Shown here: positions 1 to 42,461 of the stretch, in pieces
Position numbering within the stretch: the first letter of the stretch is position 1
Layout: every line of letters begins with the position of its first letter
Source of the DNA: Lucinisca nassula
Taxonomy: Eukaryota; Mollusca; Bivalvia; Lucinida; Lucinidae
DNA: 64,000 nt
Assembly: GCA_963580285.1 (NCBI GenBank)
Contig: OY757026.1
Coordinates: forward strand, 81,819,817 to 81,883,816
Reading direction: 5' to 3'
Made by a program: the position numbers and the translations under genes
The notes under the pieces: model-generated
Told to the model about the DNA's origin: nothing
The model's input: only the letters and a program-made list of their open reading frames with translations
Databases searched by the model: none

Positions 1-637
1 AGGGTGAACAGGTTAAGTTTTTTCAACGTTTTAATGTAAAATACATGCATTCTGGTGATACTCGCACGCACGTGCATTTTCCCGCCTTTTGAAGACGATC
101 GCGCGTTCCGTTATGTGTTACAAAAACTGGCCAAATCCTTACTTTTTCTCACTTACGCACCCACCAAAATTTCAGCAAATATTTCATGCGGGTAATACAA
201 CAGAATAACAGTTTTTCCCCAGATTTTGGCTAAAAAAGGGGGGTGCGGGTAGTATGCAAATGCGGGTAGTACACACCCGAATACGGTATATATAAAAAAA
301 AAAAAATGAAGAAAATTGCATTGACATAGATTAAAATTATGAAGAAAATGTCATAATGTGTGTTAAAAGTCAAGTGAAATGTGCATAGTATTACGTGACT
401 GGTCCCTTTAAATTCAGTAGTGTGTGTGCTGAGCACATCAAGTATTATAGTGTGTGCGCTGAACACATCAAGTATTAGAGGCGTGTGAATTTTGTTCCAA
501 ATCACTGGTGAAAGGGAGTGAGTGAATGAAAAATGCACAGTGAAGCACAAAACACAATATCAACTTATTTCTGTAATATCAAAAGTAAAACATCTTGTAC
601 ATGATTCCAATCTTCACAAATGAAGAACAGCTAATTA
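1..637. other. Intergenic or intronic, possible element end
   Basis: No gene is seen. The stretch near 240-290 (GTGCGGGTAGTA repeated, then ACACCCGAATACGGTA) looks like the end of a repeat whose other end is outside the window. The stretch 350-550 is otherwise plain. Confidence 0.4.
421..480. repeat. 30-bp tandem duplication
   Basis: Two adjacent 30-bp units beginning TGTGTGTGCTGAGCACATCA and TGTGTGCGCTGAACACATCA; they differ at only a few positions. Confidence 0.8.
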
Positions 638-918
638 CATCATGAAAACACGCCTATATAATTTTGACCCCCTTGAAACCCACTTTTATGCAGCAAAACT
701 GGGGTTTACTGGGGTAAACCTTATTTTTCTTATTTCTAGTCTAAAGTGTAGATTGTGGGTACTCGTTAGAACTGCCTCAATGAGGCGGTTCTAACGACTA
801 CCCACAATCTATATTTAGAGCAGAAATAAGAAAAATATCACAATTTTTCATCTAAAACATTTTGATATCTCGTCGGTAAAGTTTACAATGTATTTGTATA
901 GGCCTGTTTTCTGATGTA
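638..918 (+). mobile_element. C1 hairpin MITE
   Basis: Ends CATCATGAAAACACGCCTATA and TATAGGCCTGTTTTCTGATG form terminal inverted repeats. The centre is the palindrome GTACTCGTTAGAACTGCCTC / GAGGCGGTTCTAACGACTAC. Non-coding. Flanking TTATTTTTCTTATTTCT and AGAAATAAGAAAAAT extend the stem. Confidence 0.85.
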
Positions 919-1106
919 TGACTGCTAAAAATTTATCTTTTCCCCTAAATTGTGATGTCTTGAAATAACTCCTTAACATGCTTTTTTAAAAGTTAAAATA
1001 AACAGGATTCTGGAAACGGGGTGGGAGACTGCAAATGAATGTGACAAGCAAAAACTGTTTCAGTCATGTGTGTTCAGTTAAGTCTCAATCAGCCTGTGTA
1101 CCAACT

Positions 1107-1407
1107 GAACCCTTATCCTGCTGAATAAATTAATTTAGCTGCACCCATCTCTGACTAACAGTCAATCAAATCACTTGATATAATGTATTTTTTTAATCCA
1201 TAAACTACATGACAAACAGTATGTGTGAGTGTTTGAGTTTTACGTCCCACCAACAGCTAAGGTCATACGGAGACAGGACCTCAGTTTAAAGACTCATCCG
1301 AAAGTTTAACAGTGTAGATCCTGATCAGATGGCCTCTTCTTCAGAAGCTCATTTATCTGGATCTATGGGGTTTGCAAAGGAGGGGGCTGGCAGGATAAGG
1401 GTTAACA
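1107..1407. mobile_element. B-type TTAA MITE interrupted by a SINE-T4 fragment
   Basis: Left end AACCCTTATCCTGCTGAATA and right end GCAGGATAAGGGTTAA match other B copies. At 1221-1306 the T4-like segment GTTTTACGTCCCACC...AAAGACTCATCCGAAAG is inserted, with AACAGT on both sides. The hairpin arms with GATCAGATGGC are partly eroded. Confidence 0.75.
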
Positions 1408-1440
1408 ATGAACATCCCTGCAATCTCAACTTCATGAAGA

Positions 1441-1481
1441 GAATAAGATGTGTTTGTGAAACAGGAACATGTCCCCAAGCC
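1441..1481 (+). mobile_element. Fragment of pearl-like element end
   Basis: AGATGTGTTTGTGAAACAGG followed by AACATGTCCCC is nearly the same as the left end of the large pearl-like element at 28278. Only this end is present. Confidence 0.55.
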
Positions 1482-1732
1482 AGATCACTTACTGTAAAAC
1501 ACTTATATTTGGTGGTCATTTAATTTTGGTGCTATTGGCGGTCAAAGAAATAACTGCCAAAATTAAAACTGGCCAATAAAGTTAAAAATAATAACAAACT
1601 AGCAGAAATTTATTTTCAATACACATCGCAAGTATGATACAGGGCGATACATTTTATCAAGGCTTTCTCTTTGCTTAACTTGTTAAATATTAAGCCATTT
1701 AGTATCCCCAACAAAATAGAAGTGGAGGCAAT

Positions 1733-2228
1733 GATCAGGAATCGATACAATCAACCCACAGTTCCCATCAGAGACACCAAAGGGAAAGAAACACAAACAT
1801 GAAAGAACAGACCTAATGGAAACATCAATAGCGGAAAGCCAAAGACAGTTACTTTCCCACAAAATGGCCAAAAGGCTATATCCAAAATAAAATAATATAA
1901 GCGACACAAACAAACAAAGACAAACCATAACAAAAATAAACCGCATCAGAAGGGTCAACCAAAACGAATTCCAGTGGGGGACTTAAAATCTATTTTACGT
2001 GGCCACAATCCTCGCCCTTACTTCCGTCGCGATTTAGACAAATAATTTGTTCAGTCCACATGAAGGCCTCCTAACTCATTAGTGCAACATCACCATGAAC
2101 ACAAATAATCAAACAACCACAGAGATGAAACAACGGTGAGGACTCGACAGCAAGAAACCACTGAAATGCTGGAGTAAAAGAAAACCAACAGTTAAGACTG
2201 ATGGGCCCGACCAGAGATAGAGCATCTG
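1733..2228 (+). repeat. Interspersed repeat R, copy 1
   Basis: Aligns over about 500 bp with 51604-52088, sharing blocks such as AAAATGGCCAAAAGGCTAT, GGAAAGCCA, GAGATGAAACAAC and GAGGACTCGACAGCA. Its first 220 bp also match the reverse of 33135-33352. No terminal repeats or clear coding potential; class unknown. Confidence 0.7.
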
Positions 2229-2357
2229 GCACCAACCAACATTACCTTGAATTAAATCTCTCTAATTGGAGATATGAAAGAATGCACCATGTCACACTGA
2301 TGTGCTATCTCCATGATATAGACTTTACTGTCTCCATTAAGGAACTTGGGTATTTGT

Positions 2358-2610
2358 CATTATAATAACATACCCCTGAGATAAAGTGCATTCTTTCATA
2401 CCTTTGCTATGTTTTTTCTTATTTATACTCAAAACATAGGCTGTGTGTGGTTGTTAGGCAATTCTAATGAGTGCCCACAACTGCCTCGTTGGGGCAGTTC
2501 TAACAACTACCTATAACCTATGTCTTAGAGCAGAAATAAGAAAAGTAATGTAAACCCCTGTAACCCTGTTTTCTCTATATAAAGTGGGGACAGACTTGTA
2601 TTTTGTGTCC
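2358..2610 (+). mobile_element. C2 hairpin MITE, diverged
   Basis: Keeps ATTATAATAACATACCCCTG, the TTATTTATACTCAAAACATAGG stem, a diverged core (GTTCTAACAACTACC), and the AACCCTGTTTTCTCTATATAAAGTGGG side typical of C2. Confidence 0.7.
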
Positions 2611-3554
2611 ATAGGTACTTGTATGGTGCAGAGCAAAGATTCTGGTCAGACTGTGCAGATGCACAGGTTGATCTGAGTCTTTACTGTAGACACGTCTGAA
2701 GACATGACTTTGCTTGAAACAGTGAAAATAATATGGGTTTATTACAGAAGCAAGTGGGCTGCAAGGGATGCCAAAAACATTGTTAAAAATAACTTAGAAA
2801 ATACAGGGGAAATGGGTAATTTTTCAAGCATAATTCCAAAACTAATGCACAGAATGCAAAATCTGATAGCATTTATACATGAACATAAACACAACAAAGG
2901 ATAACATTTCACTGGGCACTTTAAATAGTACGGGGCTTAAAAGACAGCCTTGCAGGACAGCACAGAGTCATACCTTCAGCTAACAAAATATGGAAATGAT
3001 AAATGCCTCCACTATGTCTGTATTTTTTACTTTCTGTGTGTCTGTGCACATTTGAGGTGTGCATGCATGTTTACATGTGTTGTTGCTGTTGTTGTTGCTT
3101 AATTATTTTAGTTTATTTTGTTTGTTTTGATGTTTAACTTTCATCTTGATGTTTTTTCAGCACTGAGCAAAATTATAAATTTAATAAGTATTTTATTGAT
3201 TTCAAAATCATCATAAAAATCATGTCTAATGTCACTGGATCGAAATTCCAAAAACTGCAGTTTGTCATTTTTTTAAACTAGCTCCAGAGCTACATCTACT
3301 TAATAAATGAGCTATCAATCAAGCCACTCATAGATATCATATACTTTTCCACAATTCATGCAATTTTATATTCAACTCACTCATGCTATAACTGTCATTA
3401 GCTAGCCAAGAATATGTACCTTTTCCCAGTGGCAATACAGTAGTTGTTCTAAGAAAACAATATTGATCCTGTACCTCAGGCAACTGCAACATCTTTTATA
3501 TCAGGGGATACCCAGACCCAACATTAGGATAAGACACCCATGTGAAATTATGCT
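2611..3554. other. No feature recognised
   Basis: AT-rich sequence with a short TGT/TTG-rich patch near 3060-3130. No exon-like, tRNA-like or terminal-repeat structure was seen on either strand. Confidence 0.4.
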
Positions 3555-3772
3555 TTCTTTCATTTTTCTAACATGGGTCTTCTGTCTGATGAAAACTTGT
3601 GTTTGCATATTTCTGTAACAAACAGATTTTTGAGTGCTTGTAGCAAGTTCCCACAATCTATGTTTCTGAGCAAAAATAGGAAAAATAACACATCTACCCT
3701 TGTAAATGTGATTTTTCTCTATAATAAGTCGGCTTTACAAAGGTTTCATTACACAGACTTTTTAATGTGATG
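3555..3772 (+). mobile_element. Degenerate C2 remnant
   Basis: Recognisable pieces are CTGATGAAAACTTGTG, GAGTGCTTGTAGCAAGTTCCC, ACAATCTATGTTTCTGAGCA and TTTTTCTCTATAATAAGTCGG. The core palindrome is lost. Confidence 0.5.
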
Positions 3773-4642
3773 AGCAAACTGCATTCACTATTAATTAGAT
3801 TTTTCTCCAAGAGAAATCTGATCAGTGTCTGCTCTGTTTACAATATCACCAAAAGATTCTTTCTTCAAATTTTCATACAGGGTATCCCCAAAATTTAAGA
3901 ATTTTAGAGTAAACTAATAAACTTATGCAAAAGTAATTATTGCCCTTAAAATATAAGAAGTACCAATCAAGTTAGAACCATATTAAAGAGAAATTATTGT
4001 TTAAAACATAGTACATTTAAAAAATTGTAGATTAGTCACAAAAAGCTGGGACACCAAAATGAAGATGTAACATTATTAAAGTTGAAACAAAAGCAGTTAC
4101 AGTTTCAACAGACACCAATACAACAAAATTAAGTCACCAATCAGTAATTTCACAAAGCAAACTGAACATTTATGTTAAATGTGTTAACCATATACTTTAC
4201 ATAACAATCCATTCTCACCTACTGTTTCTATCATCTAGATATCTTCTTTGAAAGCCAAGGATGGAATCATTAATTTTACTCAGAATTGCACTAATATAAA
4301 CTCTATTATTTTGCTGTCTTCCTATTAATGAATATATATGTACATTCAGTCAAACTTAAATCGCGTGAACAACTTCGAGGCAATGAAAATTTGTTAGAGA
4401 CAGGGATCGTTCAAGCCACCGGGGGTTGATCAACGTGCATGGTCAGGAGGCATAACGGGTAACAAGAATGTCTTTATATCTTCTACAAATAAAGGTACCA
4501 GTATATTGTGTGTACTTAATAGAATCATCCCATTGAGGTATTTCTGAGTACATACAAACTATTCAAGACAGAACAAGACAAAAAACTCCCTAAACCACAC
4601 CTAAATTTAGGATGTTATTGTAAGTTATGAGAAAAATTTCTA
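3773..4642. other. No gene recognised
   Basis: AT-rich. The phrase GGGTATCCCCAAAATTTAAG near 3883 resembles a transposon end, but no partner end was found. Confidence 0.35.
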
Positions 4643-4862
4643 GGCAATATGAAAACACATATAATTCTGACCCCCTTGAACCCAACTTTTTTAAAGTGAA
4701 ACTATGATTTACAAGGGTAATATTTGTCTTATTTCTGCTCGAAAATATAGATTGTGGGTGCTCATTAGAACTGGTTCAATATTTTGAGCAGAAATAAGAA
4801 AAAAAATCACAATTTTTCATCTTAAAATTTTCGTTTTAAATTTATAATGTATTTGTTTGGAC
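4643..4862 (+). mobile_element. C1 MITE with lost right hairpin arm
   Basis: Left half and right half of C1 are present, but the core breaks at ATTAGAACTGG and resumes at TTCAATATTTTGAGCAG, so it can no longer fold. Lies about 440 bp downstream of the alternative exon at 5299 in gene direction. Confidence 0.75.
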
Positions 4863-5298
4863 TCGGCCATGGTATACAAGCCATTGGTTTTAGAGTAATT
4901 TATACCTATAACTACATGTAGCACTGTCATGAATTCAAAGGGCCTGCTAAAGTCAAATTTGTTGCTCTAATGAACAACTTGAACCATCTGTCTCTAACAA
5001 TTTCAAATAATATACATGAACATCAAATCAATAAAAGCCATAGTTTGGACACATTGCTTTTTTTTTGCCTGTCCTATGGTAAGCTTTGTAAAAGTTTCAA
5101 GCTGAGATTCTAAGATCTGAAGTAAACACTTACTGAAAGTATATTTAGAGGTTTATATGGAACTGTCTATTATTAAGCTAATTTTAATAAATGCTATCCC
5201 TTTACAAATATTTTTTGTTCATTTTGTGTATAATGAGGGAGCCTTTTTTTCCCCCTTTCTCTTTACATATTTTTCTTGATTATTTTCTTTTCACTTAC
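4863..5298. other. Intron, nothing recognised
   Basis: Sequence just downstream of the last alternative exon. A cysteine-rich exon was looked for on the minus strand between 1 and 5298 and not found. Confidence 0.4.
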
Positions 5299-5501
5299 CA
5301 CATATTTTTGGATCTCCATTTGTGAAATGCTCAAACTTTTGTGTAGGACTTGAGAACAGGCTTGTCAAGTTTAGTGTTTCAATGAAACACAGCCGAGGAT
5401 TGTGTGCAATCAACACTTTTCCTATGCCCACTTGCTGCAATGAGGTCAGGCCAAGCCACTCTATTTCCATTTTTAGAACTGAGAGGGCAGCGGAGGCATA
5501 T
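5299..5501 (-). CDS. EGFR: EGFR alternative exon, version 2: last third of L domain 2
   Basis: 203 bases, 67 codons plus one base at each side, so the same entry phase (needs two upstream bases) and exit phase (one base) as 11148-11347. Reads YASAALSVLKMEIEWLGL, TSLQQVGIGKVLI, RLCFIETLNLTSLF and PKICG. Acceptor TTGCTTTAG, donor G|GTAAGTG, a strong consensus. The conserved LC cysteine, the NLT glycosylation site and the final cysteine are kept, so it is not a decayed copy. If spliced after version 1 the frame shifts and TAA is met at the tenth codon. It could also be a constitutive exon with version 1 the minor form; the sequence cannot tell usage. Confidence 0.93.
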
Positions 5502-5756
5502 CTAAAGCAATACATAAATCAAATGCCATGACATAATAATAATAAGCAACTAAGTCAATAAGTAGCAAAATCGCATACCATCTAATAACTGCACAGAAAA
5601 AATTCATCTATACTTTTTTTTATATATTTTTTTGTACACATTAGACAAAATTTACAGCAATGTCTCTTGCTTCAAGTATGTTTTCGGGACCCTGAGGTTC
5701 TAAAAAAAAAAAAAACTGAACTCGTTTTGTAAGAAATTTGCAATGCTCATTATTAT

Positions 5757-5968
5757 TAACCCTTGTCCTGCTGAGCCCGGATGTGCCTTATCTTTGAAAC
5801 AATGTAGATCCAGATCAGATGGCTTCTGAAGAAGCCATCTGATCAGAATCTTCATTGTTTGCCATCCAGCTAATGAATTTGTATCAATAATTTGCATCAA
5901 GTAATCTGATTGGCTAATAATCAGTAGTGGGTGTGACATATTTAAATATTCAGCAGGACAAGGGTTAA
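5757..5968. mobile_element. B-type TTAA MITE
   Basis: TTAACCCTTGTCCTGCTGAG at one end and CAGCAGGACAAGGGTTAA at the other; TTAA flanks suggest piggyBac-like mobilisation. The centre is a palindrome around GATGGCTTCTGAAGAAGCCATC. Confidence 0.85.
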
Positions 5969-6536
5969 GAAACTTCCTGCTTAGATCAATGGAGATTGTC
6001 ATTTGTCCAGCTCATAAATTTTAAAATGCCAACAGTTGTTGCCATTTTAAAATTTTATGAGGTGGACAAATTTAATGCTAATAAAAGACAACAGAGTATA
6101 AAAGAGTTTTATAACCGCAAGGCCAGGTTAAAAAGCTTTTTCTCAAGTGCCAGTTTTAGAAGCATAACCAAATAGGGCGGTGCTATAAACAGCAGGTTTA
6201 CAAGCAAATAGTTTCTAAAGCCAAAGGACTTTCCAGAGATTTTGAGTTTTAAAATTTTCTGCAAAATTACTACACAGAAAAACAAATAATCCAAAGAGTC
6301 ACTGTATGAAAATAAGAGCATTCTGATAATATAATAAGAGTTTACTGACGCGGATTTCTGTGAAAACCAAAGCAATTCATTCAAATGCTATGCATCATGA
6401 CTATTTAAGTTACTTCAAATGAAAACAGACTAAAGTTTAGGCTCTGTTTCTTAAATAATTACATGAGTCACGGTCAAAAGTAAAGACTTAGATTTAAAGC
6501 CTGCCAATCAGACCAGTCAGTATCTTTGCTGCAAGG
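5969..6536. other. Intron between the two alternative exons, no gene
   Basis: A short inverted repeat (TTTGTCCAGCTCATAAATTTT at 6003 against AAAATTTTATGAGGTGGACAAA at 6049) forms a remnant hairpin. The rest is unassigned. Confidence 0.4.
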
Positions 6537-6554
6537 TTTATGGTTATTTATTTT

Positions 6555-6851
6555 GTATTGGAGTTTTACGGCCCAGTCAACACTTTTTAGGTCATTTTTG
6601 AGCCAGTCAGTTTACCTATCAACACTTTCCTGGGCAGGCTTATACGTAAGCGGTTAACCAGTACAGTGCACATTCTTTCGCCAGAAACTGACAACTGCCC
6701 TTCTTGAATCAGCGGAAGGGAGAGAATGACCACAGAAAAGACTTCATGATCAATCTCCACACAAGAATGTTGCCGACCCCGGCGGGAGTCGAACCCGCGT
6801 CCTCCTGATCACCAGTCAGACGCGCATCCGACTGAGCCACTGAGGCCGGCC
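6555..6851 (-). mobile_element. SINE-T1, full length with target duplication
   Basis: Read on the minus strand it starts GGCCGGCCTCAGTGGCTCAG, with tRNA-like A box (GTGGCTCAGTCGG) and B box (GGGTTCGACTCCC). A central domain follows, then a tail ending AAAACTCCAATACAAAA. The 18-bp sequence TTTATGGTTAYTTATTTT flanks both sides (6537-6554 and 6852-6869), a retrotransposition hallmark. It is not a functional tRNA gene. Confidence 0.92.
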
Positions 6852-6959
6852 TTTATGGTTACTTATTTTTGCTGAAAAGTGAAAAAAAAAATACTTCAAA
6901 CATGCCATCTGCTAAACATGCTCAGCGCTTGACAGGGTTATTGAAGTTTTTAGATTTAA

Positions 6960-7110
6960 CACAGCTTAAAGATGGAACAAAAAAATGCACAGAGGATCGA
7001 CACTCATCTGTATCATCTATACATTTTGTTTGATATAACACAGTTTTTTTTAATGAACATGGTTCATGTTTTGAATGCCGACAATAATGTTATAAAGAGG
7101 CTGTGGTGGA
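6960..7110. repeat. Remnant of a TATAAC-type palindromic MITE
   Basis: Shares AAGATGG, CATCTATACATTTT.GTTT and GATATAACA with the element around 7400-7560; arms are eroded. Confidence 0.5.
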
Positions 7111-7394
7111 ATTGCTCTTTTAACTACCAATATTGTAATTCAGAATGCTCCACTTTTAGTTTTTTATTCATTTGTTTGTGTTTTTTTTTTCACATAAAGT
7201 GATCATTAAATCATTTCACTGTAATTAATAAGAAAAAAAAACAGCAAAAATAGAAAAAAAACCATCACATATATGTGATTGACTAACTGCACAATTCTGG
7301 TGCCAGATGTCCAAAACAAACAAAATGTCATTTACTGCATCTTTAACTGATAATTTAAAATGGCAAATATGCTAATGTTTTTACTGAAAAAAGT

Positions 7395-7570
7395 AAGTAG
7401 ACTACAACTTCATTATAACATGATTTGTTATAACACGGTTTTGGATATAACACTATTTCAAGATGGATCCCAAAAATGTATAGATTATATAGAAAAATGA
7501 CCATAAATGGTCATTTTTCTATATAATCTATACATTTTTGTTTCGATATAACATGACTGTTACACTGCTT
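7395..7570. repeat. Palindromic MITE with perfect 32-bp arms
   Basis: Arms at 7472-7503 and 7508-7539 are exact reverse complements (TGTATAGATTATATAGAAAA...), separated by four bases. The outer parts also mirror each other (TTATAACATGATTTG against GATATAACATGAC). A truncated relative is at 35795-35850. Confidence 0.85.
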
Positions 7571-8081
7571 AATTCTTTTCAGCAAAAATTCTGCTGTATT
7601 AAATATTATACATGTTCTCGCTACCATTGATTATGCTTTGAAATCTAATGAACAATGCTAAGCTTTAAATGCTTTGAACAACTCCGTCCAGAAAGGCAAT
7701 AAAATATGTTCAATTTATTGCAAACTCAATGTTTTGGCTTTTTTTATTTTATTTTACTGATCTTAAGAGAGGTAGGGTGTGCCTGCTGTGATTGTTACAA
7801 TGGATGTGCAGTTATTAGGTGGTTTACGGTATACACAGGTTAAAAACAAACAAATCACCAGCTATGTATCAGTGGCATTCAAATAATATTACACCATTCC
7901 AGAGCTTCTTGAACTAAACATTTTATTTTTCATTTCTTTAAATTCATAAAAGGTGCCTAAATCCTATGCATGATTTTCCTTATCAAAAAGTAAAGAAAAC
8001 AAAATAAAAAAAACACTCAAAACTAGCTAGGAATGACAGACAGAATCTGTCGTAAAAAAATATCCTCAATCTAGGTTTAGC
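7571..8081. other. Intron, nothing recognised
   Basis: AT-rich intron sequence without a repeat family or coding block that I can name. Confidence 0.35.
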
Positions 8082-8362
8082 TTGTTTGATTGATTAGAGG
8101 TTTAACGTCCATGTTAACACTGTAAAGGTCATTTTGGAGACGTTGCTTCCAATTTTGTGTGACTTTTACCCGGCATCTCTCCCTGCCGCCCAATGAAACC
8201 AATAGGTTTTAGAAGCATGGACAGTCCGACACTTGCATCGCTTTGCCTGGGCAGGCTTAGATCCTCTAAGCAGTTTACCAGTACTTGTGTGCGGGTCGGT
8301 TTCAGCTCTGCGTGGAAGCATCATACAGCTCATCTATTTCTTCAATCACTGATGGGCGGGGG
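8082..8362 (-). mobile_element. SINE-A
   Basis: Tail side GATTAGAGGTTTAACGTCC, then ACACTGTAAAGGTCATTTTG and TTGCTTCCAATTTTGTG, to the head with CAGCTCTGCGTGGAAGCATC. Element transcribed right to left. A short internal stretch of the ...GAGATGAAATGACAT... block is missing. Confidence 0.85.
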
Positions 8363-8912
8363 CTGCATACTATGACAGACAAGCTGAATAGTGCATCAGA
8401 ATTTCTTAATGGTTTTTATGTCTCCAGCATCTGATCAGGGTTTTCAACAGTTTTGCAAATGTCTCAATAGTTTCACATAATATAAGACGGTCTTCTTATT
8501 AGTAAATTTAAAAAATTCTCAAATACAAAAGCCCAGAAAATACAAACCTGTGTTTTAATAATCCAAAACATATCTCCCATTCACATAATGATCAAAAATG
8601 TTTTCCAGCCAAACCAAAATAAATGGATGTGTACAAATTTATAAGAAATCGAGATAAAGTAAAAATTTTAGAAAACAATGTGGTACCAAAAGTATCACCT
8701 TGCCATATTCCTCTTGTAGGCTTCTAAATATTCCAAGGCCGATTTGTTCAAAACTAATGATGTCCGTAATTAACATATTATGAAACTGTCATCATTTTTT
8801 ATACATATTTTTTTTTTGCTGAAAAAAGTGAGTAGATTTTGCATAAAGCTACTCCCATTTTTCCAGCAACTAAACCAGGGTACAAGTGTATTAGATAATG
8901 TACTTGCTAAAC
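8363..8912. other. Intron with a hairpin remnant
   Basis: Around 8805-8870, GCTGAAAAAAGTGAGTAGAT and its approximate mirror TACTCCCATTTTTCCAGC form a decayed copy of the palindrome at 25248-25306. No gene. Confidence 0.45.
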
Positions 8913-9194
8913 ACATTACGAAAACACGCCTATACAAATACAATGGAAACTTTACCGCCGAAAAAACGAACATTTTAAGATGAAAAATTGCGATATTTTT
9001 CTTATTTCTGCTCAAAATATAGATTGGGGGTACTTGTTAGAACCGCCTCGTCGAGGTGGTTCTCACGAGTACCCACAATCTATATTTTAGAGCAGAAATA
9101 AGGAAAATAAGGCTTACCCCTGTAAACCCCAGATTTACTATATGAAAGAGGGGTTCAAGGGGGTCAAAATTATATAGGCGTGTTTTCGTGATGT
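8913..9194 (-). mobile_element. C1 hairpin MITE
   Basis: Ends CATTACGAAAACACGCCTATA and TATAGGCGTGTTTTCGTGATG; core ...TTAGAACCGCCTCGTCGAGG... Orientation opposite to the copy at 4643, so the two lie inverted on either side of exon 5299-5501. Confidence 0.88.
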
Positions 9195-9197
9195 ATT

Positions 9198-9330
9198 CTG
9201 CTGAACACAACAAGACCTATCTATACAAACAGTGTAAATCCAGGTCAAATGGCTTCTGACAAAACCATCTGATCAGAATCAACACTGTCGTAAAGTTTGT
9301 TAATTTGAATAAATACATTATATCATGTGC
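9198..9330. mobile_element. B MITE, truncated
   Basis: Contains CTGCTGAACACAACAAGACC and a hairpin AAACAGTGTAAATCCAGGTC / GATCAGAATCAACACTG; one end is missing where it meets the next element. Confidence 0.65.
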
Positions 9331-9452
9331 CTACAATCTATATTTTGAGCAGAAATAAGAAAAATATCACCATTTTTCATCATGAAATTTTCATTATTTC
9401 GCCGATAAAGGCGGCAATGTATTTGTATAGGCGTGTTTGCGTAATGTTTAAC
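9331..9452 (+). mobile_element. C1 right half
   Basis: Starts inside the stem (CTACAATCTATATTTTGAGC) and runs to GTATAGGCGTGTTTGCGTAATG. The left half is absent. Confidence 0.75.
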
Positions 9453-9639
9453 TCCATTTTTCTGAAAGTCATTAGGCATTTGTAATTGGTTTGGTGATCT
9501 GAAAATGATTGTCTCTGGAATGGTGTATATACCGAACCTAGAAAGCCTTTTAAACCAAAAGAAGCCTGAAAACGGAATTCTTAAAACACCAACCTGAATT
9601 CAAGAGTAGATGACATCATAATTTTTATCTCATTTTTCT

Positions 9640-9790
9640 TCATTATTTTTCAGAGCAGAAGGAGATTTGACATTTCAGGCAAATTGTCTGCCTAAAATAA
9701 GGATGACATTCCTAGCAGACAATTCACATGAAATGTCAAGCCTTATTCTGGTGAAAAGGCTATCTGCTTTGGTTGTGATTGGCATTTTAA
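9640..9790. repeat. Inverted-repeat element remnant
   Basis: GACATTTCAGGCAAATTGTCTGC pairs with GCAGACAATTCACATGAAATGTC a few tens of bases later. A related fragment occurs at 59440-59520. Confidence 0.6.
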
Positions 9791-10108
9791 GAGTCAACAC
9801 ATCAACCCTAAATAAACATTAGTGATGGCACAGTAAAGTCACAACAACCACCAATTATCTAGAATCAAGTCAATTAGAGCAAAATTCATGCAAATGTCAT
9901 TGATGTTAAAACATATATAAAACAATATACATGAATATCAGGCCTTCTTTCTACTTAAACAAGCTTAGATTTAGGCAAAGTTAAATGCCACGAAATACAA
10001 AAAGCCGGATATGACTGGATTAAGCATTTTTTTCTTATATCTATGAGCATGTGTGAGCCACATATACTCACAACAGTCTGTGCATATCCTATCAGTCCGA
10101 ACTTATAT

Positions 10109-10323
10109 TTAACCCCTATCTTGCTGAATATTCATTTTTAAGCCGCACCCATTTCTGTCTATCAACCAATCAAATTACTTGATGCAATTTATTGCTATAA
10201 ATTAATGAAGTGAATGCCAAACAGTGTAGATCCTGATCAGATGGCTTCTTCAGAAGCCATCTGATCTGGATCTACACTGTTTGAAAAGATAGGGGTTGTC
10301 ATGAACAGCAAGATAAGGGTTAA
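10109..10323. mobile_element. B-type TTAA MITE
   Basis: Runs from TTAACCCCTATCTTGCTGAA to CAGCAAGATAAGGGTTAA with the core palindrome GATGGCTTCTTCAGAAGCCATC flanked by AACAGTGTAGATCC and GGATCTACACTGTT. Confidence 0.85.
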
Positions 10324-11147
10324 AGTCAATTTTTTTATCTTTTTTGCCACGTTTTTTGTGATAACTTCATTACTTTTTTTTTGAGCAACACATCCAGCGG
10401 GAAAGTTGTAGAGAAGCTCCGCCAACTTCTCAAAAAGGTTTCATGCCTCAAAGATAAAGGAGCAGAGCTGTAATCATAAGGAGATTTCTGTGATTTCAAG
10501 TTTGTACGAAATTTTCTGTTTCCACAAGTCCCGCCTTCATGGTGTGGTTTGAAGATTTGTTGTCTGCTTAGTGCTTGACTGAAGGATAATATTGTGGGCC
10601 ATTCCAATATTCCTGCATGTTATTCTAGGGAGAAACAAAATCACAATGACTGGTCTGGTATTTTAAATTTTTCAGCTGTGTTGGTCTTTTCTAATGGTTT
10701 GCCTACTAAAACCGTGTTTGTCATGTTTTTGACTGTCTACACTTTAATGCTTTGTATAACGTCCCTTTAGTTGGACGCTTCGTTGGCTGCACGGGATTTA
10801 CAGAATGCGGAGTTTGATCCGGGCGGCATTGTTTTTCAAATGTCCCTTTTGTGAGTTTTCCAATGAATATTGGTAAACAGTGAAACAGAAGATAAAGTAT
10901 ATGCCCAGGGCTTACAACACAGGGAGACATCATTTTCAGTCTTAACAACACAGGGAGATATCATTAGTTGAAATTTACAGAACTCATGCCTAATCCAGTC
11001 AAAAGGTCAGATTTTTATGCATAAAACAGCAACCAAACAATCACACACACACAAGGAAAACTGGTTGTTAAGTGCATGCACTCCTGTCATCATGATCAAA
11101 TTTATGCATGCATCACAGTGACCATGAACAGGAAGTATGATACTAAC
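10324..11147. other. Intron downstream of alternative exon version 1
   Basis: No exon recognised. The segment 10811-10866 (GATCCGGGCGGCATTGTTTT, CAAATGTCCCTTTTGTG) is the reverse of 29588-29640, so it is another dispersed repeat of unknown class. Confidence 0.5.
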
Positions 11148-11347
11148 CACACTCCTCTGGTGCCATATTCAATACAGCTTTTTTCCGTTGTGTCTTGTGT
11201 TCAAATAATCTGGTTAGATTGAGCTCTTTGATATAACAAAGATCAAGATTCATAAGAATCAATGCATGGCCGTTGCTGATCTTTTTAAGTGATGTTAGTC
11301 CAAGGTATCGTAACCCTAGTTTAACAAGGGCGAAGGAATTCCCGTCA
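11148..11347 (-). CDS. EGFR: EGFR alternative exon, version 1: last third of L domain 2
   Basis: 200 bases, 66 codons plus one base at each side. After S (split codon) it reads DGNSFALVKLGLRYLGLTSL, then KKISNGHALI, LDLCYIKELNLTRLF and ends at PEECG. It corresponds to the final beta-helix rungs of domain III, which contact the ligand in human EGFR. Acceptor TTTTCTACAG, donor G|GTTAGT, a weaker donor than that of its partner. It shares LGLTSL, a G.xLI..N core, LC.I, LNLT.LF, TQ and the terminal CG with the exon at 5299-5501; about 24 of 52 positions from LGLTSL onward are identical. The matching phases and the frameshift if both are used together support mutual exclusion. Confidence 0.94.
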
Positions 11348-14095: not shown

Positions 14096-14257
14096 GATAG
14101 GTGTCGGCCCCTGATGATTTCCAGTTTATTCAAGAAAGCCAGGTCAGAGATCTCTGATGGAGCCTCCTGTATGTTAAGGTAGCCAGTTATTTCTTTGATG
14201 GAATTTAACAGCTTGAGGTCGTCCAGTTTAATACCTTCTATGCCTTCATGGCTATCT
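14096..14257 (-). CDS. EGFR: EGFR exon: middle of L domain 2
   Basis: 162 bases, entering after one base carried over (GG+A) and leaving in phase 2. Motifs: LKLLNSIKEITGYLNIQ and LNKLEIIRGRHL, diagnostic of the ErbB L2 beta-helix (IKEITGYL..., LE.I.GR). The exon is squeezed between two MITEs: D ends at 14054 and C1 begins about 8 bp beyond the exon at 14265. The acceptor pyrimidine tract and branch region are therefore largely C1 sequence. Its phase-2 end is compatible with both exons below. Confidence 0.95.
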
Positions 14258-18494: not shown

Positions 18495-18609
18495 CCTGCA
18501 AAAGTGACCTTTAGTATCTTCAAATTTCCCTCCACCACTGTACAGTTTTCAAATCGATGTATGTTCCCAGAATGCAGAAACCTCTCTGCGTCAGAAATAC
18601 CTTTGCAAT
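18495..18609 (-). CDS. EGFR: EGFR exon: start of L domain 2
   Basis: 115 bases, ending in phase 2. Reads NCKGISDAERFLHSGNIHRF, then ENCTVVEGNLKIL and VTFAG, the first rungs of L2 (compare the ErbB pattern GNI..F.NCT...GNI.IL...F.G). A likely N-glycosylation site is NCT. Acceptor CTTTTAG and donor CAGG|GTGAGT are good. Confidence 0.94.
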
Positions 18610-19876: not shown

Positions 19877-19996
19877 TTTTGGGGCATGGTCCGGTGCAGG
19901 CTGACTCTTCAGGTACACAGACATTATTGTCTAGGTCAGAGCGTGTTCCAGGTGGACAGGCAATGACACAGGCGCCTTGGTTCTTTAACATGTAAG
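19877..19996 (-). CDS. EGFR: EGFR exon: end of cysteine-rich 1
   Basis: 120 bases, entering after two bases and leaving in phase 1. Reads SYMLKNQGACVIACPPG then a linker and ACTGPCPK, which corresponds to the ...NGACVRSCP...CNGPCPK block that closes cysteine-rich domain 1 before L2. Donor GTGAGT, acceptor TTTTCAG. The exon is short but the alignment of cysteines with the family is continuous across both junctions. Confidence 0.94.
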
Positions 19997-23836: not shown

Positions 23837-23978
23837 ATGGACAATCTTTGACACAGAGGGTTCCAAATGAATAACGTCCCTTCGGATTTGCCACCCACTT
23901 CATGTTTTTCTTATCATACACCTGCATCTGAGGACAGAAGTTGTCACACTGACCCTCGTTGTAGAAATGTCGACAAGC
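23837..23978 (-). CDS. EGFR: EGFR exon: dimerisation-arm region of cysteine-rich 1
   Basis: 142 bases, phase 0 in and phase 1 out. Begins ACRHFYNEGQCDNFCPQM, then a hydrophilic stretch VYDKKNMKWVANPKG, RYSFGTLCVKDCP. In structurally known ErbBs the segment between ...CP and G.Y.FG..CV..CP forms the dimerisation arm that reaches across the receptor pair. The arm carries aromatic tips (Y in QVYDKK, W in MKWVAN, Y in GRYSFG), as in known family members. Splice sites are TTTCAG and CAT|GTAAGT. Confidence 0.95.
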
Positions 23979-25421: not shown

Positions 25422-25546
25422 GTAACACTGAGTCTTTCTCGGGCCATCACATCCTGCAGCACATTCTGGATGACAGCACTCATTCTGTTGGTCACCAAAG
25501 CAACGGCCATCACAGGTCTCATGACACACCTCTTTCACGTGGTTCA
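25422..25546 (-). CDS. EGFR: EGFR exon: furin-like cysteine-rich 1, part 2
   Basis: 125 bases, entering after one base carried from the previous exon and leaving in phase 0. Contains EVCHETCDGRCFG followed by ECCHPECAAGCDGP, the most recognisable signature of the ErbB furin-like region, and stops after TQCY. The donor is GTATGT and the acceptor TTTCAG. In ErbBs this part carries the disulfide modules leading to the dimerisation arm. A D-family MITE begins about 20 bp upstream of the exon on the plus map (25569). Confidence 0.95.
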
Positions 25547-30103: not shown

Positions 30104-30325
30104 GCTTTTGGCACATATCAGGACCACTACCCCAGCAATGGTAGTCGCCCGTATGACTATTATAGCAGTCCATGTGGCATGGACCACACTGTCGTCGGAA
30201 ATTGGGAGAGTTAAAGATGAGTTTGACCGGCGGTATACTGGATGGATTGATGTCCTCCCATTTAATTGAGTCGCTGTGACACATTAGGTTGTTGTTTTGG
30301 AAGTATACTTGTCCCTGCACAATTT
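30104..30325 (-). CDS. EGFR: EGFR exon: end of L1 and start of cysteine-rich 1
   Basis: 222 bases. It begins EIVQGQVYFQNNNLMCHSDS, matching the last L1 rung (residues like EI.G.V.F..N..LC...I.W in ErbBs). It passes through IKWEDI and then into the first cysteine-rich knot, CGPCHMDCYNSHTGDYHCWG, ending at MCQK. In EGFR this is where L1 meets the furin-like domain. Acceptor TTTCAG and donor GTAAGT are good. The upstream intron edge is unusual: the AAAACACAAAATTGCAT minisatellite reaches to within about ten bases of the exon and supplies its pyrimidine tract. Confidence 0.94.
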
Positions 30326-30332
30326 CTGAAAG

Positions 30333-30760
30333 CGAAAACACAAAATTGCATTAAAAGGAAAACACAAAATTGCATCAAAAGGAAAACACAAAATTGGAAA
30401 ACACAAAATTGCATAAAGAGGAAAACACAAAATTGCATCAAAAGGAAAACACAAAATTGGAAAACACAAAATTGCATTTAAAAGGAAAACACAAAATTGG
30501 AAAACAAAAAACTGCATTAAAAGGAAAACATAAAATTGGAAAACACAAAATTGCATTAGAAGGAAAACATAAAATTGGAAAACACAAAATTGCATTGAAA
30601 GGAAAACACAAAATTGGAAAACATAAAATTGCATCAAAAGGAAAACATAAAATTTGAAAACACAAAATTGCATTAAAAGGAAAACACAAAATTGGAAAAC
30701 ACAAAATTGCATTTAAAGGAAACACAAAATTGCATTAAAAGGAAAACAAAATTGCTCCAG
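30333..30760. repeat. Minisatellite (GGAAAACACAAAATTGCATTAAAA)n
   Basis: Alternating blocks GGAAAACACAAAATTGCAT.AAA (about 24 bp) and GGAAAACACAAAATT (15 bp), so a 39-bp higher-order unit. Open reading frames across it on both strands follow from the lack of stops in the repeat and are not genes. It lies against the acceptor of exon 30104-30325. Confidence 0.92.
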
Positions 30761-33893: not shown

Positions 33894-34235
33894 CTGATAA
33901 AGACACAAACTGTAATTCGAATATTCCTTGAGAATCGTTATACGGATTATGGTTCAACGCAACATATAAACTGTAATTACTGTCGTATAATGTCTCTCCT
34001 CGAATAATCCGTAAGTTCTTCAAATGCAAATAATTTGAAAATACATTAACTATTAAAACGTATCCCATCACTTCCTCGATGTCTTTTAAGAATGAGAGAT
34101 CAAAGTTTCCTTCTAAATTTGTAATTTCCAAGTTTTCGTCCACAAAGGTGCAGTTCGTGTATCTCTGTTTGTAGAGATCGTATTGGTGCTGAAATGATCC
34201 GTGCCTCACCAGTTTTTCTGATGAACCCCGACATA
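33894..34235 (-). CDS. EGFR: EGFR exon: receptor L domain 1
   Basis: 342 bases, 114 codons, entering after two bases and leaving in phase 1. It opens with ICRGSSEKLVRHGS, the ErbB start of L1, followed by YTNCTFVDENLEITNLEG, DLSFLKDIEEVMGYVLI and LRIIRGETLY, the classic right-handed beta-helix repeats of the receptor L domain. Possible N-glycosylation sites are NCT, NYS and NDS. The acceptor is preceded by a pure T tract and the donor is CAG|GTAAGT. The domain contacts the ligand with L2 in ErbB receptors. It is one long exon here. No duplicate of it is visible in the window. Confidence 0.95.
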
Positions 34236-42317: not shown

Positions 42318-42440
42318 TCTTTCGACAGGCCTGTTTATTATTATCGTAGATATAAGAGTTTCGGCAGCTACATTTCTTGTACAAGCAGATAAACCCTAGC
42401 TGACAATCACTGTTCACTGTACATTTAGAGCCATATAAAC
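42318..42440 (-). CDS. EGFR: EGFR exon: N-terminal six-cysteine (EB/EGF-like) module
   Basis: About 41 codons between a TTTCAG acceptor and a GTAAGT donor. It contains six cysteines with spacing C-x5-C-x5-C-x4-C-x-C-x12-C and short motifs such as NSDCQLGFIC and KKCSC, which resemble a small EB or EGF-like disulfide module. The exon ends with one base of a codon that is completed exactly by the first two bases of the L1 exon at 34235, giving CRKICRGSS, so it belongs to the same reading frame. Fly and human ErbB proteins, as I recall them, have no such module before L1, so this would be an N-terminal addition. It needs an upstream exon ending in phase 1, which was not found. The 26-bp minisatellite begins about 60 bp beyond its donor. 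Confidence 0.8.
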
Positions 42441-42461
42441 CTGAAACGAGAAAATAAACAA

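Follow-up and report, generated by a model that had tools for sequence, protein, structure and literature searches.

Duplicated domain III exons in the EGFR gene of the bivalve Lucinisca nassula: a probable mutually exclusive pair

We analyzed a stretch of 64 000 nucleotides (nt) from the genome of the lucinid bivalve Lucinisca nassula (contig OY757026.1, hereafter C20, positions 81819817–81883816), referred to below as the window, which holds the first part of a single EGFR gene on the minus strand; the remainder of the gene runs off the low end. The subject of this study is a pair of homologous exons of this gene, exon A (L2c-A, 11148–11347, 200 nt) and exon B (L2c-B, 5299–5501, 203 nt), each of which encodes the last third of domain III. 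The assembly searched comprises 2.93 Gb in 696 contigs, and 140 kb beyond the low end of the window was added, so that 204 contiguous kb was examined in total. The gene spans more than 130 kb and is colinear on one contig of 102 Mb, and the 204 kb used is free of N. Among the best 120 of 692 proteins matched in an ectodomain search, the nearest named receptors included those of Mercenaria, Ruditapes, Mya, Sinonovacula and other clams. The gene shows the EGFR/ErbB order of L1, cysteine-rich, L2, cysteine-rich, membrane span and kinase, with the membrane span recognized by eye only. It is also colinear with the protein record P0001 (1453 amino acids, a one-member cluster), which bears PF01030, PF00757, PF14843 and PF07714 and the domain IV, membrane region, kinase and tail of which align with exons at window coordinates –5391 to –89078. 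P0001 appears to derive from a transcript, because it lies on a contig of only 5.7 kb, against more than 130 kb for the gene described here.

All exons described here are on the minus strand. A coding exon that precedes domain I at the N terminus was located at 42319–42444, which is the extent of a tblastn match only (86% over 42 residues to P0001; splice sites not fixed). It is followed by L1a (33894–34235, domain I), L1b (30104–30325, the end of domain I and the start of domain II), CR1 (25422–25546) and CR2 (23837–23978) in domain II, CR3 (19877–19996, the end of the cysteine-rich domain II), L2a (18495–18609, the start of domain III) and L2b (14096–14257). L2b is the upstream partner common to A and B and ends in phase 2 (codon TC/N, the slash marking an exon edge here and below). 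Downstream of B, an intron of 10.7 kb, the first part of which occupies positions 1–5298, leads to D4a, the exon that opens domain IV; it is situated outside the window, at –5391 to –5599 in window coordinates (C20:81814217–81814425). The nine placed exons from L1a to B are each flanked by an AG acceptor and a GT donor; they form one open frame when either A or B is taken as the last. Exons A and B are thus placed between the sole L2b exon and the sole first domain IV exon of the gene.

Both exons are bounded by GT-AG sites (CTACAG/TGACGG to TGTG/GTTAGT for A, GCTTTAG/ATATGC to TGTG/GTAAGT for B), are entered in phase 2 and left in phase 1, and fit L2b and D4a, the latter accepting the phase 1 that A and B supply alike. 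In these coordinates, splice sites and phases the first-pass annotation of the window was correct. Its estimate of about 24 identical residues in 52 equals the best 52-column stretch (24/52), whereas the whole alignment gives 25/63. The Smith–Waterman score between the two peptides was 120, compared with a maximum of 50 among 2000 shuffles, and tblastn within the window related them at an E value of 5e-12. The best match among solved structures was EGFR for A (E 3e-10) and ErbB-2 for B (E 5e-14), in both cases at the end of domain III. An NLT sequon, an LC pair and a terminal cysteine are common to both, so that the cysteines and the glycosylation site said to be retained are indeed present in each.

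We then spliced the exons in silico, counting codons from L1a and leaving out the N-terminal exon. With A alone, 1406 codons were open to the stop, and with B alone, 1407. When A was joined to B, the junction read D-M-P-P-L-P-S-Q-F-stop, reproducing the frameshift and the TAA at codon ten of B that had been predicted; the stop fell at residue 484, with 16 exon junctions downstream. The order B then A gave a stop at residue 486, also with 16 junctions downstream, and the omission of both gave a stop at residue 429 with 15 junctions downstream. A reading as cassette exons was rejected, since the both-in and both-out products lose the frame. mRNAs with a premature stop ahead of many junctions are expected to decay; with 15–16 junctions beyond the premature stops, decay would therefore be expected for mRNAs that include both exons or neither. 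The intron between A and B is about 5.6 kb long and all sites are GT-AG, and neither a donor-to-branch-point distance below 50 nt nor a mixture of splice-site types is present. Crowding or site incompatibility therefore cannot enforce the choice, and exclusion must rest on regulation, on decay or on both.

These properties can be compared with those listed for mutually exclusive exons in the literature. In the sections of PMC3228551 available to us, such exons are internal, lie outside tandem gene duplicates, are homologous, share splice-site type and frame, and are of nearly equal length (by default a difference of at most 20 amino acids); A and B (200 and 203 nt) have each of these features. 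A break of the frame on joint inclusion, described in part of PMC5740500 as a trait of many but not all mutually exclusive pairs, occurs here in either order, and skipping both exons also breaks the frame. At the level of sequence, the A/B pair conforms to the description of mutually exclusive exons in these portions of PMC3228551 and PMC5740500.

To what extent exons of this gene occur in more than one copy was evaluated with 24 exon peptides over the 204 kb, at E values up to 0.001 and with exact copies included. Fifteen of the 24 matched themselves alone, as did those of the C-terminal-tail exons CT1 and CT3; L1b, CR1, D4a, D4b and D4d also matched repeated cysteine-rich exons weakly (34–57%). 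The A peptide matched B, and the CT2 peptide matched nine partial, decayed copies. No intact extra copy of any other tested exon, and no second EGFR exon set, was found in the 204 kb. Genome-wide searches, in which only the best candidates were scored (five with query B and six with query A), returned for B five matches, namely B itself, A (1e-6), an insulin-receptor-like domain (E 0.008) and two above E 5, and for A four matches, namely A itself, B (1e-6) and two above E 2. Among these scored candidates, neither query found a third L2c copy below E 1e-5 in the genome. One candidate for such a copy, continuous with D4a in the match to residues 482–593 of P0001, was rejected as an alignment that ran on into the intron.

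The nine partial matches to CT2 (DDYLQPKSSNPKAYLELENN) stand in a row beside that exon at window coordinates of about –86790 to –88091 (C20 near 81.7317–81.7330 Mb). Two of the nine contain a stop, and the tyrosine of DDYLQP is replaced in all nine. Judging from these changes, the exon, which carries a motif that may act in signalling, has been copied into a tandem array that is now decaying.

We next examined A-type and B-type exons in relatives. In P0001, the exon at this position is of the A type and is joined to its neighbours, with 47/67 residues identical to A as against 27/64 to B. Two short-fragment searches, from which the best 3 of 31 and the best 3 of 202 candidates were taken, yielded four different open reading frames (ORFs) of 78–169 amino acids, P0121–P0124, which run past the exon and for this reason are probably genomic. 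P0121 (47/61 identical to A) and P0124 (40/67) are of the A type, P0122 is of the B type (46/67 identical to B as against 22/53 to A), and P0123 is nearest to the Mercenaria form. In a tree of 29 rows and 67 columns, comprising 22 rows chosen for alignment from the 120 ectodomain matches together with A, B, P0040 and P0121–P0124, the A group was supported at 100/99 and the B group at 99/98. The ORFs of P0121 and P0124 start with ...YS/D and end with CG, like A (TGTG/GTTAG), and that of P0122 starts with FR/Y and ends with CGK, like B (TGTG/GTAAGTGA). As we read these ORF edges, the splice contexts of A and B appear to be kept in P0121, P0124 and P0122. The deeper forks of the tree had no firm order: in seven clade tests (28 rows, P0031 dropped), the P values of the approximately unbiased test (p-AU) ranged from 0.07 to 0.38, with none below 0.05 and the lowest obtained for Mercenaria with Ruditapes.

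The similarity between B and P0122 extends into the intron. The intron-derived residues of P0122 (LLIIMSWHLIYV) matched the intron just before B with a score of 61, compared with a maximum of 38 in 500 base shuffles. This flank, at positions 5502–5545 directly upstream of B, contains 12 codon-length matches (36 nt) to P0122, which are visible only through translation. At least 36 nt of the intron before B thus looks conserved. Regulated splicing typically goes with conserved intron sequence beside the alternative exon, and the flank is a candidate splicing control element. P0121 matched the intron before B weakly (4/500 shuffles as good), and five of seven other intron comparisons were within the shuffle range (151 to 446 of 500).

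The first-pass annotation had suggested a comparison with other bivalves for the same pair of exons. We compared identities exon by exon for 14 chosen pairs of relatives, and for A and B each against P0001, in the order upstream exon, L2c and downstream exon. The EGFR records of Mercenaria (P0003), Ruditapes (P0004), Ostrea (P0027) and Saccostrea (P0029) represent the same gene and the same exon position. Ostrea and Saccostrea were 87, 28 and 89% identical (in the 22-row alignment, 26% at L2c and 87% and 93% at its neighbours), Ostrea and C. virginica 80, 25 and 83%, and P0040 and Saccostrea 83, 30 and 76%, whereas Ostrea and P0040 were 79, 83 and 74% identical. Two unlike L2c versions therefore exist among these records in an otherwise matching gene; the presence of both versions within one gene is not visible in clustered records and was seen only in Lucinisca. 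Given the 28% identity of Ostrea and Saccostrea at L2c and the 87–89% beside it, the switch may be old or recurrent. A fall at L2c was also observed between Mercenaria and Ruditapes (85, 46 and 78%). No marked fall was observed for Argopecten and Pecten (94, 88 and 87%), two Mercenaria records (85, 87 and 86%), two Mytilus records (81, 78 and 88%), Ruditapes and Mactra (66, 58 and 61%) or Sinanodonta and Potamilus (75, 65 and 78%). Automatic gene models of other bivalves may hold such isoforms already.

The exchanged segment contributes to the region that binds ligand in human EGFR. As described in the portion of PMC5819829 concerned with domain III, this surface is bound by EGF and, near its C-terminal part, by cetuximab, and Asp355, Gln384, His409 and Lys465 form critical hydrogen bonds with EGF. 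With the structure alignments taken as gapless, positions 409 and 465 map to the exchanged exon, where A has Ser and Lys and B has Tyr and Glu. Positions 355 and 384 map to the constant exon L2b, in which Asp and Gln appear to be kept, from a comparison by eye with the EGFR sequence. A change in ligand preference between receptors built with A and with B would be plausible.

Taken together, these results suggest that exons A and B of this EGFR gene very probably arose by tandem duplication and are used in a mutually exclusive manner, giving one version of the receptor at a time. The spliceosome would join L2b to one of the two exons, A or B, which in turn would be joined to domain IV, and wrong splice products would be removed by nonsense-mediated decay. 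The choice might be set by a regulator, acting perhaps on the stretch that directly precedes B. In the two resulting receptors, domain III would be the same over its first two thirds and differ in the last third, so that part of the ligand-binding face would be changed, and the switch might tune which EGF-like ligand binds, or how strongly. The proposal of mutually exclusive splicing in the first-pass annotation is supported to this extent, with a tandem gene within the 204 kb searched and a cassette reading excluded and a relic unlikely; exclusivity itself, and the use of B in mRNA, we infer.

Several observations weigh against this interpretation. The support comes from DNA and protein records, and A and B have been observed side by side in no genome but this one. 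Among the relatives found, no transcript-like protein carries a B of the type in the window, and the close one, P0001, has A. The 67-column tree cannot date the duplication, and a lineage-specific origin was not rejected (p-AU 0.188). L2c evolves fast, as shown by Saccostrea and C. virginica (81, 54 and 80%) and by Mya and Dreissena (75, 43 and 59%); Argonauta and Octopus (60, 55 and 74%) are a further example, without a marked fall. Because L2c drops below its neighbours in the first two of these pairs and also between Mercenaria and Mactra (64, 42 and 59%), the case of Mercenaria and Ruditapes is weakened. The records are clusters at 90% identity that hide isoforms, so that a second version in any oyster or venerid species would be invisible. 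The intron before A did not match P0121 (446/500 shuffles as good) and matched P0124 weakly (7/500). Finally, no RNA partner for the B flank was found beyond shuffles, 2, 5 and 5 of 20 of which were as strong in three introns.

The lack of a B-type transcript could indicate that B is an unused duplicate, a silent relic, and that mRNAs use A only. We consider this unlikely, since B is open, has a GTAAGT donor and matching phases, and P0122 keeps it at 46/67 residues, in unchanged splice contexts and next to an intron flank that matches. Decay in the same gene, moreover, looks different, as the CT2 copies illustrate (a stop in 2/9, the DDYLQP tyrosine lost in 9/9). The stop that arises at the tenth codon of B after A, 16 junctions before the end, would also suit an exon that serves mainly as a poison exon, lowering receptor levels, with B alone never made. 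Such an exon, however, needs no intact L domain in a frame that is read only without A, and both B and P0122 keep one, which makes this explanation very improbable.

Two further explanations are less probable again. When the frame of B is read on past its donor, an in-frame stop follows almost immediately (ICGK-stop), as expected if the coding region ended in B, with a poly(A) site behind it, and the product were a short secreted receptor; however, the donor of B is GTAAGT and the phase of the exon suits domain IV, and read-through past the donor of A meets a stop at once as well, so that a secreted form of this kind seems highly improbable. The least probable of all is that A and B belong to two genes, through tandem or partial gene duplication or an assembly error. 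Bivalve EGFR paralogues do exist, and two Mercenaria records, on contigs of unequal length, differ in the kinase. The ideas of a tandem gene, an assembly error and a third copy were nevertheless rejected, since the gene runs colinearly along a single 102 Mb contig, the 204 kb is free of N, no second exon set was found over that distance and no further L2c copy appeared among the scored genome-wide candidates.

A broader interpretation goes beyond this single gene. The pair might represent an old or repeatedly evolved switch in bivalve EGFR, present in oysters and venerids too, that gives different ligand preferences and is convergent with FGFR IIIb/IIIc; we advance this only tentatively, with its chances somewhat short of even. 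In FGFR1–3, the choice between exons IIIb and IIIc changes ligand preference. The case described here is similar in that the gene is a receptor tyrosine kinase and the alternative exons specify the C-terminal portion of a domain that binds ligand, but an L domain is concerned here and an immunoglobulin domain there, the origin is separate, and a ligand switch is putative here. Within the ErbB family, the alternative JM-a and JM-b exons of ErbB4 change the stalk and its cleavage and are not known to be homologous duplicates; like A and B they belong to the extracellular part of an ErbB receptor, but the A/B pair alters domain III and consists of homologous duplicates. In agreement with the first-pass annotation, which knew of no description of such alternatives in an ErbB ectodomain, none of the best-matching titles and abstract openings in the open-licence PMC literature described an ErbB receptor with alternative exons for domain III, subscription journals being mostly outside this scope.

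FGFR1–3 are named among the genes with mutually exclusive exons in the part of PMC5740500 that lists them. From the tandem-duplicated class as presented in the main texts of PMC3228551 and PMC5740500, the A/B pair differs in gene and site, namely EGFR domain III, and EGFR occurs zero times in these two main texts. According to the relevant part of a 2006 survey, only one ErbB receptor had been identified in invertebrates, with several ligands in Drosophila (PMC1618406). If the proposed switch is real, splicing within domain III would be another route to diversify ErbB signalling without gene duplication, and the pair would amount to a naturally occurring swap of one part of the ligand-binding face, by which one gene gives two receptors.

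Some further features of the locus and contig were observed. The N-terminal exon at 42319–42444 is cysteine-rich (GLYGSKCTVNSDCQLGFICLYKKCSC) and is matched by P0001 and by the EGFR of Mercenaria and Mactra; to our knowledge, such an exon ahead of domain I is not usual in vertebrate EGFR. A repeat with units like CCTTTTGATGCAATTTTGTGTTTT, recognized by eye, occupies 30326–30734 and abuts the acceptor of L1b. The introns between 4500 and 15000 contain 18 families of direct repeats (copies 61–95% like the reference) and 29 inverted pairs; these short dispersed repeats are probably transposon-derived. A second EGFR-like domain I exon is present on the same contig (L003, C20:58840465–58840761). 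It may be part of a kinase-less relative, like the 'uncharacterized' proteins P0041 and P0056 of Dreissena and Mya, which have L and furin-like domains without a kinase domain.

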